Source: Planctomycetota bacterium
GTDB taxonomy: Bacteria; Planctomycetota; UBA1135; UBA2386
Assembly (NCBI GenBank): GCA_947444055.1
Contig: CANEYR010000015.1
Coordinates: 1 to 64,000, forward strand
Direction of reading: 5' to 3'
Length of the DNA stretch: 64,000 nucleotides
Shown: positions 3,032-11,720 of the stretch, piece by piece
Numbering within the stretch: the first letter of the stretch is position 1
Layout of the letters: each line of letters opens with the position of its first letter
Notes under the pieces: model-generated
Told to the model about the DNA's origin: nothing
Database searches by the model: none
The model's input: the letters and a program-made list of their open reading frames with translations, nothing else
Made by a program: the position numbers and the translations under genes

Positions 3032-6000
3032 ATGCATCGCGCCCTCGTTGTGTCCTTGTTCACCCCGCTGCTGTTTGCCCAGGCGCCCGCCGGGCCGCAA
3101 GAACTGTTCGACGGCAAGACGCTGCAAGGATGGCGCGGCGATGCCAAGGTTTGGAGCGTGCGCGATGGCTGCATCACCGGCTCGACGGTCGGTCACAAGA
3201 TCGCCGCCAACACGTTCTTGATCTGGGAAGGCGGCGACGTCGCCGATTTTGAACTGCGCGCCGAGGTCAAACTCGTCGGCGACAACAACAGCGGCGTGCA
3301 ATACCGCAGCCGTGTGCTCACAAGCGGCACGTTCAGCTGCGGGGGCTACCAGTGCGACGTGCATCCAGCCGCTGAGTACTTGGGCATGCTGTATGAGGAG
3401 CGGGGCGCTGGCATCCTGTGCAAGAACGGCCAGTTCGTCGCGCGCGATCAGGCAGGCGCCGTGCGCGTCGTCGGCACGCTCGGCAAGCCCGAGGCCCGCG
3501 ATCTCACCCATTGGCATGCGCTGCACATCGTCGCGCGCGGCAACTTGATGTGGCATGAGATCGATGGTGTGGTCGTCGCGGTCGTGCAGGACGATGCGGC
3601 GACGGCGCCGCGCGAGGGCGTGCTCGCATTGCAGACACACGCGGGGTCGGAGATGACGGTGTCGTTCCGCAACCTGCAACTGACCCGACTGCCGAAGGAA
3701 GAGCTCGCCAAGGTGCTGCCGCCAGTCGTCGCCAGTCTGCTCGCCGCCGACAAGCAGCGCGCGGCAGGGCTGAAGTGGGCCACGCCGCAGTGGATCTGGG
3801 ACGCTTCGCCGCAGGCGACTGAGGAGGTGTTCTTCCGTCGCACGTTCGCGCTCGCGGCAGTTCCCGATACGGCGCGCCTGGCGGTGTCGTGCGACAACCG
3901 CAGCCGCGTCTACGTCAACGGCCAGCGGGTGATCGAGCGAGACGAGTGGGAAGTGCCAGCCTTCGCCAACGTCGGCAGGCTGCTGCGCGCCGGCGACAAC
4001 GTGATCGCCGTTCACGGTACGAACGAAGGTGGGCCGGCCGGACTCGTGCTGTCGCTGTCGTGGAGTAGCAAGGACGGCAAGGGTGAGGCCGGCGAGATCG
4101 TGACGGACGCGAGCTGGCGCTGCCACAACGACGACCCGGACGGTTGGGACGCGGCGGCCTTCGACGCCACGAAATGGCAACCCGTCAAGGTGCTCGCCGC
4201 GCTCGGGGCGCCGGACGCGCCGTGGACTGGTGCGCTGGGCGAGGACGCGTTCGGTTCGTCAGCGCCAGCCGATGCGCCGCAGGTGGCAGTGCCGGCCGTT
4301 GGCCTGTCGGGGCCGATGGCCGCTGATGCGGTGAAGTTGCTGTCGGTGCCGCGCGCCTATGGTTCGTGGGTCTGTTTGGCCGTCGACGACAAAGGCCGCC
4401 TCTATGCGAGCGACCAAGCACGCGGGCTCTACCGCATCGTGCCAGCCAAGGGCGTCGGTGCCGTGACGACAACCGAACGCATCGACGTCGATCTCGGCGG
4501 CTGCCATGGCTTGTGCTGGTTCCGCGGCGCCCTCTACGCGTCCGTCAACGGGCGCCAATCGGGGCTCTACCGCGTCACCGACACGAATGGCGACGACCAG
4601 CTCGACAAGGTCGAACTGCTGCGCGCGCTCGAGGGCAGTGGCGAACACGGCCCGCATGCGATCGTTCCCGCGCCGGACGGCGAGAACCTGCTGGTGATGT
4701 GCGGCAACCACACCAAGGTGCCTGAGCTCGCGGGGAGCCGCGTGCCGACCAACTGGGGCGAAGACCGACTGATGCAGAAGATCGAAGATCCGAACGGGCA
4801 CGCGGTCGGCATCAAGGCGCCGGGTGGATACGTCTGTCTGGTCGATCCCGAGGGCAAGCGCTGGGAGATGTACTGCTGCGGCTTCCGCAACGCCTACGAC
4901 ATGGCGGTGCTCGCGAACGGCGCCATCGTGACCTACGACTCCGACATGGAATGGGACATGGGCTTGCCGTGGTACCGACCGACGCGGCTCTACCAAGTGC
5001 TCAGTGGCGTCGACTACGGCTGGCGCAGTGGCACCTCGACGTGGCCCACGGACTATCCCGAAGCGCCTCCTGCTCTCGCTGACGTCGGCCCGGGTTCGCC
5101 AACGGGACTCGTCGCGATCGGCAACGAAGTGCTCGCGCTCGATTGGACGTTCGGCACCGTCTACGGCTTTGGCGCGAAGGACGGCCAGGGTGGCCTCGAG
5201 GGCGCGCTGTCGACGCAGTTGACGGGCGTACCGCTGCCGGTGGCCGACATCGTTGCGGCTGGCGATTCTTGCTTCGTGCTGACCGGCGGGCGCGGCATTC
5301 CATCGACGCTGCTGATGGTGCGCAACCCGAGCGTCTCGTCCGTGACCGCCAGCAACCCGACGGCGTTGGCGCAGCTCGCCAAGTTTGAATCGGGGCACGG
5401 CCGCATCGACGAGGCCGCGATCGCGGCGGCGTTCGCACAACTGGGGCGCCGTGACGCGGTGTCGACCGCCGCGCGCACCACCATCGAGTCGCAGCCCCCA
5501 GTCACCTGGCGACATCGCGCGCTCGCCGCGCTGCCGGGCCAGCCGGGTGCGTCGCTGATGGGCCTGTTGGCACTCGCTCGCAGCGGCGAGCAGATCGATC
5601 TGCAGCCGCTGCTCGACGCGCTCGGCAAGTTCACGTTCGCGGACCTGACACTCGAACACCGCATCTGGTGGCTGCGCACCCACGCGCTGGCGCTGCTGCG
5701 CCTGGGCCCGTCGAACCCCGCCCAGCACACGCAGCTCGCGCAGCGCCTGCTGCCACTGTTCCCGGCTAACGACGACCGCGTCGACGCCGAACTGGCCGAG
5801 CTGCTCGCCTACGTCGATGCGCCGGACTTCCTCGCCAAGGCCGTGCCGATGCTGTCGCCGCTGCGCCCACAAGTACCACCGTCGTGGACCGAGGTAGCGA
5901 CGCGCAACGCGAACTACGGCGGCGTCATCAACAAGATGCTGGCGAACATGCCGCCGACGGCGCAGATCGCGATCGCCAACGCGCTGCGCACCGTCAAGCA

Positions 6001-6718
6001 CGGTTGGACGCTCGACCAACGGCGCGCGTACTTCGCGTTCCTCGGGCAAGCGCGCAAGTGCAAGGGCAACGCTTCCTACGACGGCTACCTGAAGGCGTTC
6101 ATCGACGAAGGCTGGGCCGCGTGCAGCACAGCCGAGCAGCACGCACTAGCGGACCTCGTCGGCAAGGCCAAGGCCGACCTGCCGAAGTTCTTGAGCACAC
6201 CGCCGAAGGGACCGGGCCGCGACTGGCAGCTCGCTGACGCCGACGCCCGCATGAAGAATGGCTTCGCCGACGCCGACCTCGCGGCCGGCCACAACCTGTT
6301 TCACGCGATCGGCTGCGCTTCGTGCCACTACTTTGCTGGTGAAGGCGGCAACCACGGCCCCGACCTCACGAGCCTCGGCAACAAGTTCACCGCCGCCGAC
6401 GTGCTCGAAGCGATCCTCGACCCGAGCAAGGTGATCAGCGACCAGTACTCGGGATCGGTCGTGACCAAGCGCGATGGCAGCTCGGTGTTCGGCCGCGCCA
6501 CCAAGGTGCAGCACGAAGGGGCAGCGAGCTGGGAAGTGGTGCCCGCGGTCGCCGACGCAGTGCCTCTGCACATCCCGGTCGCCGACGTCGCCACGGTCGA
6601 ACCATCGAAGCTCTCACCGATGCCAGCCGACCTCGTCGACCGGCTCAGCCCGACCGAGCTGCGCAACCTGATGGCGTTCCTGCTGTCGCGCGGCCAGGGG
6701 CTGGTCGCTCCGAAGTGA
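3032..6718 (+). CDS. Secreted DUF1080 / PVC-type dehydrogenase beta-propeller / haem c multidomain protein
   Basis: A 1228-aa exported protein with signal peptide MHRALVVSLFTPLLFAQAPA. Residues about 20-230 are a DUF1080 (3-keto-disaccharide hydrolase/LamG-like) domain, starting ELFDGKTLQGWRGD. A small jelly-roll like the sugar-binding module of glycosidases follows (SRVYVNGQRVIERDEW, GDNVIAVHG). The centre is the beta-propeller found in planctomycete 'membrane-bound dehydrogenase' proteins (GCHGLCWF, CGFRNAYDMA, GVDYGWRSGT). Helical repeats then lead to a C-terminal haem-binding domain with CASCH and the typical DLTSLGNKF and AILDPSKVISDQYSG segments. Family context suggests oxidation or breakdown of sugars in the periplasm with electrons passed to haem c; the substrate is not deducible. 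ATG 3032 directly begins the signal peptide. Confidence 0.85.
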   Translation: MHRALVVSLFTPLLFAQAPAGPQELFDGKTLQGWRGDAKVWSVRDGCITGSTVGHKIAANTFLIWEGGDVADFELRAEVKLVGDNNSGVQYRSRVLTSGTFSCGGYQCDVHPAAEYLGMLYEERGAGILCKNGQFVARDQAGAVRVVGTLGKPEARDLTHWHALHIVARGNLMWHEIDGVVVAVVQDDAATAPREGVLALQTHAGSEMTVSFRNLQLTRLPKEELAKVLPPVVASLLAADKQRAAGLKWATPQWIWDASPQATEEVFFRRTFALAAVPDTARLAVSCDNRSRVYVNGQRVIERDEWEVPAFANVGRLLRAGDNVIAVHGTNEGGPAGLVLSLSWSSKDGKGEAGEIVTDASWRCHNDDPDGWDAAAFDATKWQPVKVLAALGAPDAPWTGALGEDAFGSSAPADAPQVAVPAVGLSGPMAADAVKLLSVPRAYGSWVCLAVDDKGRLYASDQARGLYRIVPAKGVGAVTTTERIDVDLGGCHGLCWFRGALYASVNGRQSGLYRVTDTNGDDQLDKVELLRALEGSGEHGPHAIVPAPDGENLLVMCGNHTKVPELAGSRVPTNWGEDRLMQKIEDPNGHAVGIKAPGGYVCLVDPEGKRWEMYCCGFRNAYDMAVLANGAIVTYDSDMEWDMGLPWYRPTRLYQVLSGVDYGWRSGTSTWPTDYPEAPPALADVGPGSPTGLVAIGNEVLALDWTFGTVYGFGAKDGQGGLEGALSTQLTGVPLPVADIVAAGDSCFVLTGGRGIPSTLLMVRNPSVSSVTASNPTALAQLAKFESGHGRIDEAAIAAAFAQLGRRDAVSTAARTTIESQPPVTWRHRALAALPGQPGASLMGLLALARSGEQIDLQPLLDALGKFTFADLTLEHRIWWLRTHALALLRLGPSNPAQHTQLAQRLLPLFPANDDRVDAELAELLAYVDAPDFLAKAVPMLSPLRPQVPPSWTEVATRNANYGGVINKMLANMPPTAQIAIANALRTVKHGWTLDQRRAYFAFLGQARKCKGNASYDGYLKAFIDEGWAACSTAEQHALADLVGKAKADLPKFLSTPPKGPGRDWQLADADARMKNGFADADLAAGHNLFHAIGCASCHYFAGEGGNHGPDLTSLGNKFTAADVLEAILDPSKVISDQYSGSVVTKRDGSSVFGRATKVQHEGAASWEVVPAVADAVPLHIPVADVATVEPSKLSPMPADLVDRLSPTELRNLMAFLLSRGQGLVAPK

Positions 6719-8640: not shown

Positions 8641-9765
8641 ATGCGCATCACGACGATCGCCGCCCTCTTCTTCGTTGTCGGTTCTGGCCTGTCCGCCCAA
8701 GCCAACGACGCGCATTCGAGCAAGTCGCCGCCAGCGGGCCCCCCGTGGGTCACCGACTTCGTCGCCGCCCGCGCCACGGCGATCGCCGAGCAGAAGCCGA
8801 TCTTCGTCTACTCGACGAAGACGTATTGACCACACTGCGTCGTCATGGAGAGGGGTCTCCTCTCCACCAAAGAGCTGGCCGCGCAGTACGACAGCGTCGT
8901 CTGGATGTACCTCTTCCAGGACTTCTCGCAGAGTGAAGAGGACCGCGCCGCCGAACGCGTGGCCATTCGCTTTGGCATCAGTTCGTGGCCGCAGCACTTC
9001 CTCGTCGATCCGTTCACGCTGACCAAGGTTGCTGACACCGGGCGCAACTTGTCGTCCTTTGGCGCCGCCGTGAAAGCGACGCGCATCACAGCCGGCGAAC
9101 TCAAGCCCAGCGTCGAGCAGTTCGCGACCTTCGATGCGCTCGCCAACTCGCTGGAGAAGGGCAAGGACGTGGCCGCGGCGCAGAAGCACCTCAAGCACGA
9201 AGATCGCGTCGTCGCCTTTCGCGCGCTGCAGACGATCGCCAAGAAGTCACCTGCCGTGCTCGCCAAGGCGAGTGCGTGGCTGCTGACGACCCCCAATGAC
9301 CAGATCCGCGGCCTCGTCTGCGACGCGTTGGCGACGCACGGCGACATCGAAGCGAAGGACCTGTTGCACGGCCTCGTGCGCGATCCCGGCAAGAGTGAGA
9401 ACCCCAACGTGCTGCGCATGCGGGCGGTGAAGGCCCTCGCGCGTTGTGGCGATGCGACGTCACTGCCCGTGCTCGAACCGTTCGCCGCCAGCGGTCAGTA
9501 TCGCAACGGCCTGACGATGACATCGATCCAAGCCACAGCTGACCTCGGCGAACGCATCCCCAAGGCGAAGGCCGCCGCCGTCGAGGTGCTCGCGAAGTGT
9601 TACCCGGCAGTGCCGGTCGGCGAGGACGCGGCAACCGAGCAGCGCATGTGCGAAGGCTTGGCCAACGGCGTGCACGCAGCGCTGAAGAAGCTCACGGGCA
9701 AGACGGTCGCCTTCCCTGGCGAGTACACCGAAGCCACGCGCGCGAAGCTGATGCAGAGCTGGTAG
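8641..9765 (+). CDS. Probable selenoprotein: exported thioredoxin-fold protein with UxxC site and HEAT repeats (in-frame TGA at 8827-8829)
   Basis: One continuous frame of 375 codons (374 aa) interrupted only by TGA at codon 63. Before it lie a signal peptide (MRITTIAALFFVVGSGLSAQA) and the beta-strand/loop KPIFVYSTKTY. After it the frame continues PHCVVMERGLLSTKELAAQYDSV. With Sec at 63 the site reads U-P-H-C, exactly where thioredoxin-like proteins have CxxC. WMYLFQDF, the cis-proline-type SWPQHFLVDP and about 200 residues of helical HEAT-like repeats follow. A hairpin with loop GGTCT lies 24 nt after the TGA. Read as two genes, the first would be a 62-aa exported peptide ending just before the active site and the second a headless 306-aa protein starting inside the fold. 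The alternative is a TGC-to-TGA nonsense mutation. No Sec machinery genes are in this window. Confidence 0.82.
8847..8865 (+). promoter_or_regulatory. Candidate bacterial SECIS hairpin
   Basis: A perfect 7-bp stem (GGAGAGG at 8847-8853, CCTCTCC at 8859-8865) closes the 5-nt loop GGTCT (8854-8858); T8846-A8866 adds one more pair. The loop starts 24 nt after the TGA at 8827-8829, within the spacing known for bacterial SECIS elements. The apical GGU matches the loop nucleotides that SelB recognises in E. coli fdhF. The stem is written with AGG, a codon rarely seen in neighbouring genes, suggesting selection on RNA structure. The conserved bulged U of the lower stem cannot be placed with certainty. 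Confidence 0.72.
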
Positions 9766-9836: not shown

Positions 9837-11720
9837 ATGTGGTCCCTGCTCGCTCTCGTCGCCGTCGCCCCCCAAGGCGAGCCACCGGCGGCGCCGCGCC
9901 CACACTGGGCCTACACGGCGCCGGTGCGGCCAGAGCCGCAGGCCGGCGAGGCGGCAGCGATCGATGCGTTCGTGCTGGCAGCCATCACCCGGGAAGGGCT
10001 CGCACCGACAGTCGAAGCCGATCGCGCGACGTTGCTGCGTCGAGTGTCCTTCGACCTCATTGGACTGCCGCCGACGATCGCGCAACTGGAAGCATTCCTC
10101 GCCGACGTCGCGCCAGGAGCCTACGAGCGCGTCGTCGACCGCCTGCTGGCCTCGCCACACTACGGGGAACGCTGGGCCACGCCGTGGCTCGATCTGGCGC
10201 GCTACGCCGACACCAACGGCTTCAACTTCGACGGGCCGCGCAGCCTGTGGAAGTATCGCGACTGGGTGATCGACGCGCTCAATCGCGACCTGCCGTTCGA
10301 TCAGTTCACGGTGCTGCAACTCGCGGGCGATCTGCTGCCTGACGCGGGCGCCGAAGGCTTGATCGCGACGGGCTTTCACCGCAACACCATGCTGAACGAC
10401 GAAGGCGGCGTCGATCCCGACGAAGCCCGGTGGGAACGACTGCTCGACCGCGCCAGCACGACCGCGACCGTGTGGCTTGGCAGCACGTTGCATTGCGCGC
10501 AGTGCCACGACCACAAGTTCGACCCGATCTCGCAGCGCGACTTCTACGCCATGGTCGCGTTCTTCGAACCGGCGGCGGAAGTGCCGCTCGAGCTGCCGAC
10601 GGCGGCGCAGGCCGCTCGCCGCGAAGCGTTGCGCAGCCGTGTGCAACAACTCGTCGACGCCAACGCGCCAGCCGCGGAACTCGCGACGGCCCAGAAGGAG
10701 CTGGCGGCGGCGACGGTCGACAGCACACTCATCCTGCGCGAACGTGACGACGTGCCCGCGACGACCGCACTGCGGGTGCGCGGCGCCTTCGATGCACGCG
10801 GCGACACGGTGGCGGCTGGCGTGCCGGCCGCACTCGGCCCAGCATGGCCGACAGGCGCACCGAAGAACCGGCTGGGCCTGGCGCGCTGGTTGGTGCAACC
10901 TGATCACCCGCTCACCGCACGTGTGCATGCGAATCGGCTGTGGAGCCATCTGTTCGGTCGACCTCTCGTAGCGACGCCAGAAGACTTCGGCCTGCAAGCG
11001 CCGCCCGTCGATCACCCACAGCTGCTCGACTGGCTCGCCACCGAGTTCGTGCGCCTCGGCTGGTCGCAGAAAGCTCTGCTGCGCACGATCGTGTTGTCGG
11101 CGACCTACCGACGAGATAGCGCGATGCCGGACACCGATCGCGAACGCGACCCGCAGAATCGCTGGCTCGCCCGCGGCGCGCGCGTTCGCTTGCCCGCCGA
11201 GCAGGTGCGCGATCTGCAATTGGCGGCGAGTGGCCTGCTGTCGCCGACCATCGGCGGCCCGAGTGTGTTCCCGCTGCAAGCCGACATCAGTGGCGTCGTA
11301 CCGATCAACAAGGCCGACCTGCGCTGGCGGCCAAGTGACGGCGACGCTCGCCATCGGCGTGGCCTCTACACGTTCTGGCAGCGCACGGCGACGTTCGTGC
11401 AGTTCGCGGTGTTCGACGCGCCCTCGCGCGAGCAGTGCACGGTGATGCGCCAACGCACCAACACGCCACTGCAAGCCTTGACCGGCCTCAACGATCCCGC
11501 CGCCTGGGAGGCGGCCAAGGCGCTCGGCCAGTTGCTTGCGACCGCGAGCGGCGAGGACCGTGCGCGCCTGGCGGTCGGATTTCGCCTCTGCACTTCGCGC
11601 ACTCCCGATGCCGTGGAACTCGACCTGCTGCTCGCCGCACTGCACGCCGAGTCCGCCGAGTTGCGCTGGCCGCTGCTCGCCAACGCCCTGCTCAATCTCG
11701 ACGAGGCGCTGTCGCGATGA
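9837..11720 (+). CDS. DUF1549/DUF1553 (PSCyt2-PSD1) protein
   Basis: A 627-aa planctomycete-type protein. Residues about 35-250 match DUF1549: IDAFVLAAITREGLAP, RRVSFDLIGLPPT, LLASPHYGERWATPWLDLARYAD, FHRNTMLNDEGGVDPDEARW, and the CAQCHDHKFDPIS motif carrying CxxCH. Residues about 330-620 match DUF1553 (NRLGLARWLV, RVHANRLWSHLFGRPLV, FGLQAPPVDHPQLLDWLA). The usual N-terminal cytochrome (PSCyt1) domain is absent; the protein opens with a short hydrophobic stretch (MWSLLALVAVA) that may serve as signal. The gene overlaps the DUF1501 gene by ATGA, a pairing found throughout this phylum. The biochemical role is unknown; a redox-linked envelope function is inferred from the CxxCH motif. Confidence 0.88.
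   Translation: MWSLLALVAVAPQGEPPAAPRPHWAYTAPVRPEPQAGEAAAIDAFVLAAITREGLAPTVEADRATLLRRVSFDLIGLPPTIAQLEAFLADVAPGAYERVVDRLLASPHYGERWATPWLDLARYADTNGFNFDGPRSLWKYRDWVIDALNRDLPFDQFTVLQLAGDLLPDAGAEGLIATGFHRNTMLNDEGGVDPDEARWERLLDRASTTATVWLGSTLHCAQCHDHKFDPISQRDFYAMVAFFEPAAEVPLELPTAAQAARREALRSRVQQLVDANAPAAELATAQKELAAATVDSTLILRERDDVPATTALRVRGAFDARGDTVAAGVPAALGPAWPTGAPKNRLGLARWLVQPDHPLTARVHANRLWSHLFGRPLVATPEDFGLQAPPVDHPQLLDWLATEFVRLGWSQKALLRTIVLSATYRRDSAMPDTDRERDPQNRWLARGARVRLPAEQVRDLQLAASGLLSPTIGGPSVFPLQADISGVVPINKADLRWRPSDGDARHRRGLYTFWQRTATFVQFAVFDAPSREQCTVMRQRTNTPLQALTGLNDPAAWEAAKALGQLLATASGEDRARLAVGFRLCTSRTPDAVELDLLLAALHAESAELRWPLLANALLNLDEALSR

Follow-up and report, generated by a model that had tools for sequence, protein, structure and literature searches.

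The window, which is the whole 64 000-nucleotide stretch of planctomycete DNA that was analysed, carries on its forward strand a gene (8641–9765) interrupted by an in-frame TGA. From ATG 8641 the frame runs for 62 codons to the TGA (8827–8829), continues for a further 311 codons and closes with a TAG ending at 9765. With the TGA read as selenocysteine (Sec), the product has 374 residues and the sequence leading through position 63 is Y-S-T-K-T-Y-U-P-H-C, which places U where a thioredoxin fold has the first Cys of its CxxC. The three closest orthologues show 63–66% identity on both sides of the TGA. Conventional ORF finding recovered only a 306-residue ORF from ATG 8845, downstream of the TGA. 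The frame of 62 codons, TGA and 311 codons, the UPHC reading and the split by annotation had all been claimed in the original prediction, and each is present in the sequence. The most likely product of the locus is a single exported redox protein, the gene of which standard annotation cuts in two at the TGA.

Frame length was rejected as evidence for recoding. The GC-rich window contains 31 TGA-split frames in which the TGA is preceded by 62 or more open codons and followed by 300 or more, so that a frame of this kind is by itself no proof.

A large ORF elsewhere in the window (3032–6718) combines domains of the 3-keto-disaccharide hydrolase and cytochrome c types, and PSCyt2/PSD1 domains occur in the gene at 9837–11720, the first one downstream of the selenoprotein gene. 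No conserved gene neighbourhood was found among the orthologues, the neighbours of which vary (DUF3500, AMP-binding, TIG, cupin-like and APS kinase). Gene neighbourhood was dropped as a functional clue because the neighbours differ between orthologues and indicate no partner. A plasmid search gave no match.

Architecture of the predicted protein

Homologues with TGA at codon 63 were found in 28 planctomycete genomes from 11 families; nine of these genomes, the source genome included, came from across the order and 19 from a 392-genome sample of the phylum. The 28 TGA forms and one Cys form make up a 29-member alignment, in which two full-length orthologues from the same genus, with TGA at the same codon, share 66 and 64% identity with the window protein (68 and 65% in a three-member alignment). 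Most of the genomes are draft assemblies; contig mixing could affect single genomes, hardly 28.

The first 21 residues or so (8641–8703) form a probable Sec-type signal peptide, as judged from the hydrophobic N-termini of the aligned members and a low-confidence helix (2–23) in the model. Export of the product, predicted at the outset together with the signal peptide, is likely because the members start with such a hydrophobic stretch. The signal peptide is followed by a thioredoxin-fold domain (Thioredoxin_7, PF13899; residues 36–124, 8746–9012), which scored 33.8 bits against a cut-off of 27, is modelled with high confidence and was detected in all 29 aligned members (E ≤ 0.001). The C-terminal part (approximately residues 158–374, 9112–9762) is a HEAT-repeat solenoid with a Pfam HEAT_2 score of 52.2 bits, above the cut-off, and its best stretch at 212–286. 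HEAT_2 was found in 25 of the 29 members, and the region is all-helical with high confidence in the model. Pfam and a confident AlphaFold model (mean pLDDT 93) thus bear out the thioredoxin fold and HEAT repeats originally proposed.

In the model the UPHC motif lies at the start of helix 64–71, following strand 54–60. Sec63 (8827–8829) occupies its first position, encoded by TGA in 28 genomes and by TGC in one, and the predicted resolving residue, Cys66 (8836–8838), is Cys in all 29 members. Among the cysteine columns, 63 (Sec/Cys) and 66 alone are conserved throughout the alignment; Cys227 and Cys269 are frequent. In thioredoxins a cis-proline is located just before the corresponding strand. 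Pro117 (8989–8991), which directly precedes model strand 118–122 and is Pro in 29 of 29 members, is expected to be the cis-proline that faces the active site.

A Foldseek search with the whole chain gave a single match under an E-value of 0.001, with poor superposition, and the neighbours of the single domains were used instead. Among the PDB neighbours of the thioredoxin domain are chlamydial DsbH (PDB entry 2ju5) and the C-terminal domain of DsbD; the neighbours of the HEAT domain are HEAT-type alpha-Rep proteins.

Divergent sequences were also seen. Five homologues (L037, L038, L040, L041 and L064) form a divergent, longer subfamily on a supported branch of their own, in which UPHC or UPAC is retained; about 60 extra residues lie between the thioredoxin domain and the HEAT repeats in four of the five. 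A distant homologue (L039; G103:C29:3601-4650) has lost both redox positions, with SPGRLHF replacing the CxxC region in an open frame, and is possibly a non-redox descendant.

Recoding of the in-frame TGA

In bacteria, SelB delivers Sec-tRNA to a UGA codon when a hairpin is present. A candidate SECIS hairpin was located at 8846–8866, with a stem formed by 8847–8853 and 8859–8865, an additional pair 8846/8866 and an apical loop GGUCU at 8854–8858. The original prediction had placed a hairpin with loop GGTCT 24 nt after the TGA; hairpin and loop are present as described, but the distance of 24 nt applies to the start of the loop, the stem itself beginning 17 nt after the TGA. The constraints given for bacterial SECIS elements are an apical loop of 3–9 nt, a stem of 4–16 bp, a G within the first two loop positions, a distance of 16–37 nt from the UGA and a minimum free energy of −7.5 kcal/mol or lower (PMC13188914). 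The hairpin, with a 5-nt loop, 8 bp, a spacing of 24 nt and −13.6 kcal/mol, agrees with all of these. The stem contains the codon AGG, rightly described at the outset as uncommon (it makes up 1% of the Arg codons of seven neighbouring genes), and this codon is retained in four orthologues.

Of 1,289 TGAs in the window, four are followed at SECIS distance by a perfect stem of at least 7 bp that carries a G(G/T) loop. A looser definition gave nine hairpin matches, among which the one at 8846–8866 is the sole one to combine a UxxC motif of the thioredoxin type with a long open frame downstream. The 31-nt hairpin alone was matched in energy by two of 200 shuffles. Over 50 nt the folding energy is ordinary (26 of 200 shuffles equally low, z = −1.27), and folding energy alone was not relied on as evidence for a SECIS element. 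An Rfam scan of the window gave no match.

At this site the homologues show two types of loop: GGUCU occurs in five members of the clade of the window protein, and the other 23 have stems closing on AGUU (AGGU in two). Covariation is seen in the stem of these 23 distant members: position 1 of a codon for Lys, Gln or Glu changes together with the wobble position of a codon for Leu (A–U in five, C–G in five, G–C in 11, unpaired in two). The covariation score, computed on 18 distinct sequences, was 0.275 against 0.097 ± 0.028 for shuffled alignments; no shuffle scored as high, and versions slid along the alignment remained below 0.1. The pair states switch repeatedly along the protein tree, so that the covariation is not explained by a single shared ancestor. 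Two members do not pair in the AGUU register; one of them (L060) nevertheless forms a strong hairpin, with a slightly shifted stem. The only Cys homologue found (in genome G149) carries TGC at codon 63, giving C-P-H-C, and is without the hairpin, although it groups with the GGUCU members on one supported branch; this absence is expected where Cys replaces Sec. The question of chance is settled by conservation and covariation, not by the frame or the folding energy.

The decoding machinery is present in the same genome. Profile searches detected selB (349.5 bits), selA (458.3 bits), selD (357.9 bits) and tRNA-Sec (74 bits), all above their cut-offs, and ARAGORN assigned the tRNA the anticodon TCA, in agreement with the profile match. 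All four components whose presence had been named as a check on the prediction were therefore found. The genome's own selD contains a TGA. Its product is a Sec form with the in-frame TGA in GSGUAAKL, and the gene adjoins selA on a short contig (L010 928-1851, G000:C170). Across the 28 TGA genomes, tRNA-Sec was found in 22 and selB above the cut-off in 23, despite incomplete assemblies; in two of them, G332 and G353, both incomplete, neither was seen. The presence of selA does not discriminate as a co-occurrence test, as the gene is near-universal in the order (142 of 154 genomes).

Two readings of the TGA other than Sec were weighed. Were it a true stop, the locus would hold a 62-residue leader and a separate 306-residue protein, or else a decayed pseudogene; such an ORF does begin at ATG 8845, and TGA is a normal stop codon in this genome. 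Against this, conservation of the protein runs unbroken across the TGA in the alignment, a second ORF starting at 8845 would have no signal peptide and only half an active site, and codon 63 of the homologues, which the prediction had proposed to inspect, is either TGA (28 genomes) or Cys (one). The position of ATG 8845 is a Val or Leu codon in 21 of the 29 members, which disfavours re-initiation as a conserved mode. The downstream frames, decay of which would have spoken for a pseudogene, are open and under purifying selection, with pN/pS values of 0.41–0.63 in four comparisons and 0.49–0.63 over the last 100 codons. A true stop is thus very improbable.

A frame that is open and conserved on either side of the TGA would also be expected if a suppressor or an altered code inserted, for example, Trp or Arg instead of Sec. 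TGA, however, is the stop of all nine neighbouring genes checked, while the selenoprotein gene itself ends with TAG, which makes a reassigned code very unlikely. Moreover, the affected position is the redox-active one, Cys is the sole substitute seen there in an intact motif, and the genome possesses the full Sec machinery alongside a covarying SECIS-type hairpin. We regard insertion of another amino acid as scarcely credible. The gene can be assigned with high confidence as a genuine selenoprotein gene in which TGA 8827–8829 specifies Sec, the product being most likely an exported thioredoxin–HEAT protein with a Sec63-Pro-His-Cys66 redox centre. The SECIS analysis foreseen in the original prediction strengthened this assignment, the hairpin satisfying the bacterial constraints and its stem covarying in distant members.

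Related proteins and novelty

The protein was compared with four known systems. DsbH (PDB entry 2ju5; NF043050) is a periplasmic oxidoreductase that shares the thioredoxin fold (TM-score of 0.68 normalised to the target); a published account presents it as a reducing dithiol oxidoreductase that resembles thioredoxin and the gamma domain of DsbD (PMC5193440). Unlike the window protein, it is a single domain of 144 residues with Cys and without HEAT repeats; the window protein was not matched by NF043050 (cut-off 190 bits), and weak matches were obtained for eight of the 29 members. The Sec-containing thiol:disulfide interchange protein of the catalogue of prokaryotic selenoproteins (PF13098) shares a thioredoxin-like domain with UxxC, but no HEAT fusion of it is included there (PMC13188914). 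The window protein scored 19.5 bits with PF13098 against a cut-off of 27, and 18 of the 29 members match at E ≤ 0.001.

The Trx7/PDZ (seleno)protein NF041199, a selenoprotein with a Thioredoxin_7-type domain, matches 21 of the 29 members weakly. It differs in having a CxxU motif, according to the catalogue, and a PDZ domain in place of UxxC and HEAT; the window protein scored 12.3 bits against its cut-off of 300, and the Pfam scan gave no PDZ domain. Escherichia coli DsbA contains the same dipeptide (CPHC, compared with UPHC here), but its helical domain is inserted within the thioredoxin fold (PMC5193440), whereas the helices of the window protein follow as a separate solenoid in the model. 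A Pfam scan of the window protein and the members gave no match to the DsbA family.

The catalogue of May 2026, comprising 119 prokaryotic selenoprotein families, contains no thioredoxin–HEAT fusion, and planctomycetes are unmentioned in its text (PMC13188914). NCBIfam gave weak matches in all members (best E-value 1.5e-5), with the window protein far below every cut-off, and literature searches for a thioredoxin–HEAT selenoprotein found none. On these three comparisons, which uphold the earlier description of the protein as new-looking, the sequences appear to represent a new selenoprotein family of a known kind, namely the exported UxxC thioredoxin-fold proteins, here fused to HEAT repeats.

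A second candidate for an exported Thioredoxin_7 selenoprotein was encountered in three genomes of the same genus (L024, L025 and L026 in G003, G007 and G002, respectively), with about 30% identity in the thioredoxin domain. It carries Y-A-G-U-(G/P)-P-C, and its TGA is followed by a strong hairpin (GGAGAGCGGUCCGCUCUCC). Neither an NCBIfam match above the cut-off nor a Pfam HEAT domain was found for this candidate.

Proposed function and significance

The exported Sec-containing thioredoxin-like protein of the original prediction is supported, at the level of sequence, by the signature of recoding, the Sec machinery, the domain content and the conserved active site; from these we infer export, redox chemistry and the role of the HEAT domain. 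SelB and tRNA-Sec would decode UGA 8827–8829 as Sec, directed by the in-frame downstream hairpin. After export, the likeliest function would be thiol–disulfide exchange outside the cytoplasm: Sec63 would attack a disulfide or thiol of a client, Cys66 would resolve the selenenylsulfide and the HEAT surface would probably dock the client or a redox partner.

Some thioredoxin-fold selenoproteins, for example the peroxiredoxins, act on peroxides (PMC13188914), and a selenoprotein acting mainly on peroxides or small molecules, or serving as a selenium or metal carrier, was considered in place of protein thiol–disulfide exchange. The UxxC motif with invariant Cys66 and Pro117 is the arrangement of disulfide exchange, in contrast to the TxxU motif of the peroxiredoxins. 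By fold, the first domain neighbours DsbH and the C-terminal domain of DsbD, and the solenoid that follows it hints at a protein as partner. We judge a peroxide, small-molecule or carrier role to be unlikely.

For thiol–disulfide exchange, the DsbH and DsbD C-terminal neighbours, together with a DsbD-type membrane protein in the genome, suggest a reducing role. An oxidase or isomerase would also be compatible with the CPHC-type dipeptide, which DsbA has as well. The genome search found one DsbD-type membrane protein and no VKOR, which leans towards a reducing partner, the interaction being putative. It is conceivable, though we put it forward tentatively and as less probable than not, that the protein is a widespread redox enzyme of the planctomycete envelope, nearly always in the Sec form, whose HEAT solenoid directs the DsbA-like UPHC centre to particular clients; this would constitute an undescribed selenium-dependent system for oxidative or isomerising folding outside the cytoplasm.

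To our knowledge, the selenoproteins of Planctomycetota have been little studied. The ratio of Sec to Cys forms among the members found is 28:1, in a search of one phylum seeded with three Sec-form sequences, so that the preference may shift with wider sampling. Such dominance of the Sec form is unusual, almost all selenoproteins being said to have numerous Cys homologues (PMC12013277). With two types of SECIS loop at one codon position and a Cys member that has no hairpin, the family is a clean case in which to study the constraint that a SECIS element places on its host protein. The family would add to the bacterial selenoproteome a member that ordinary annotation splits.
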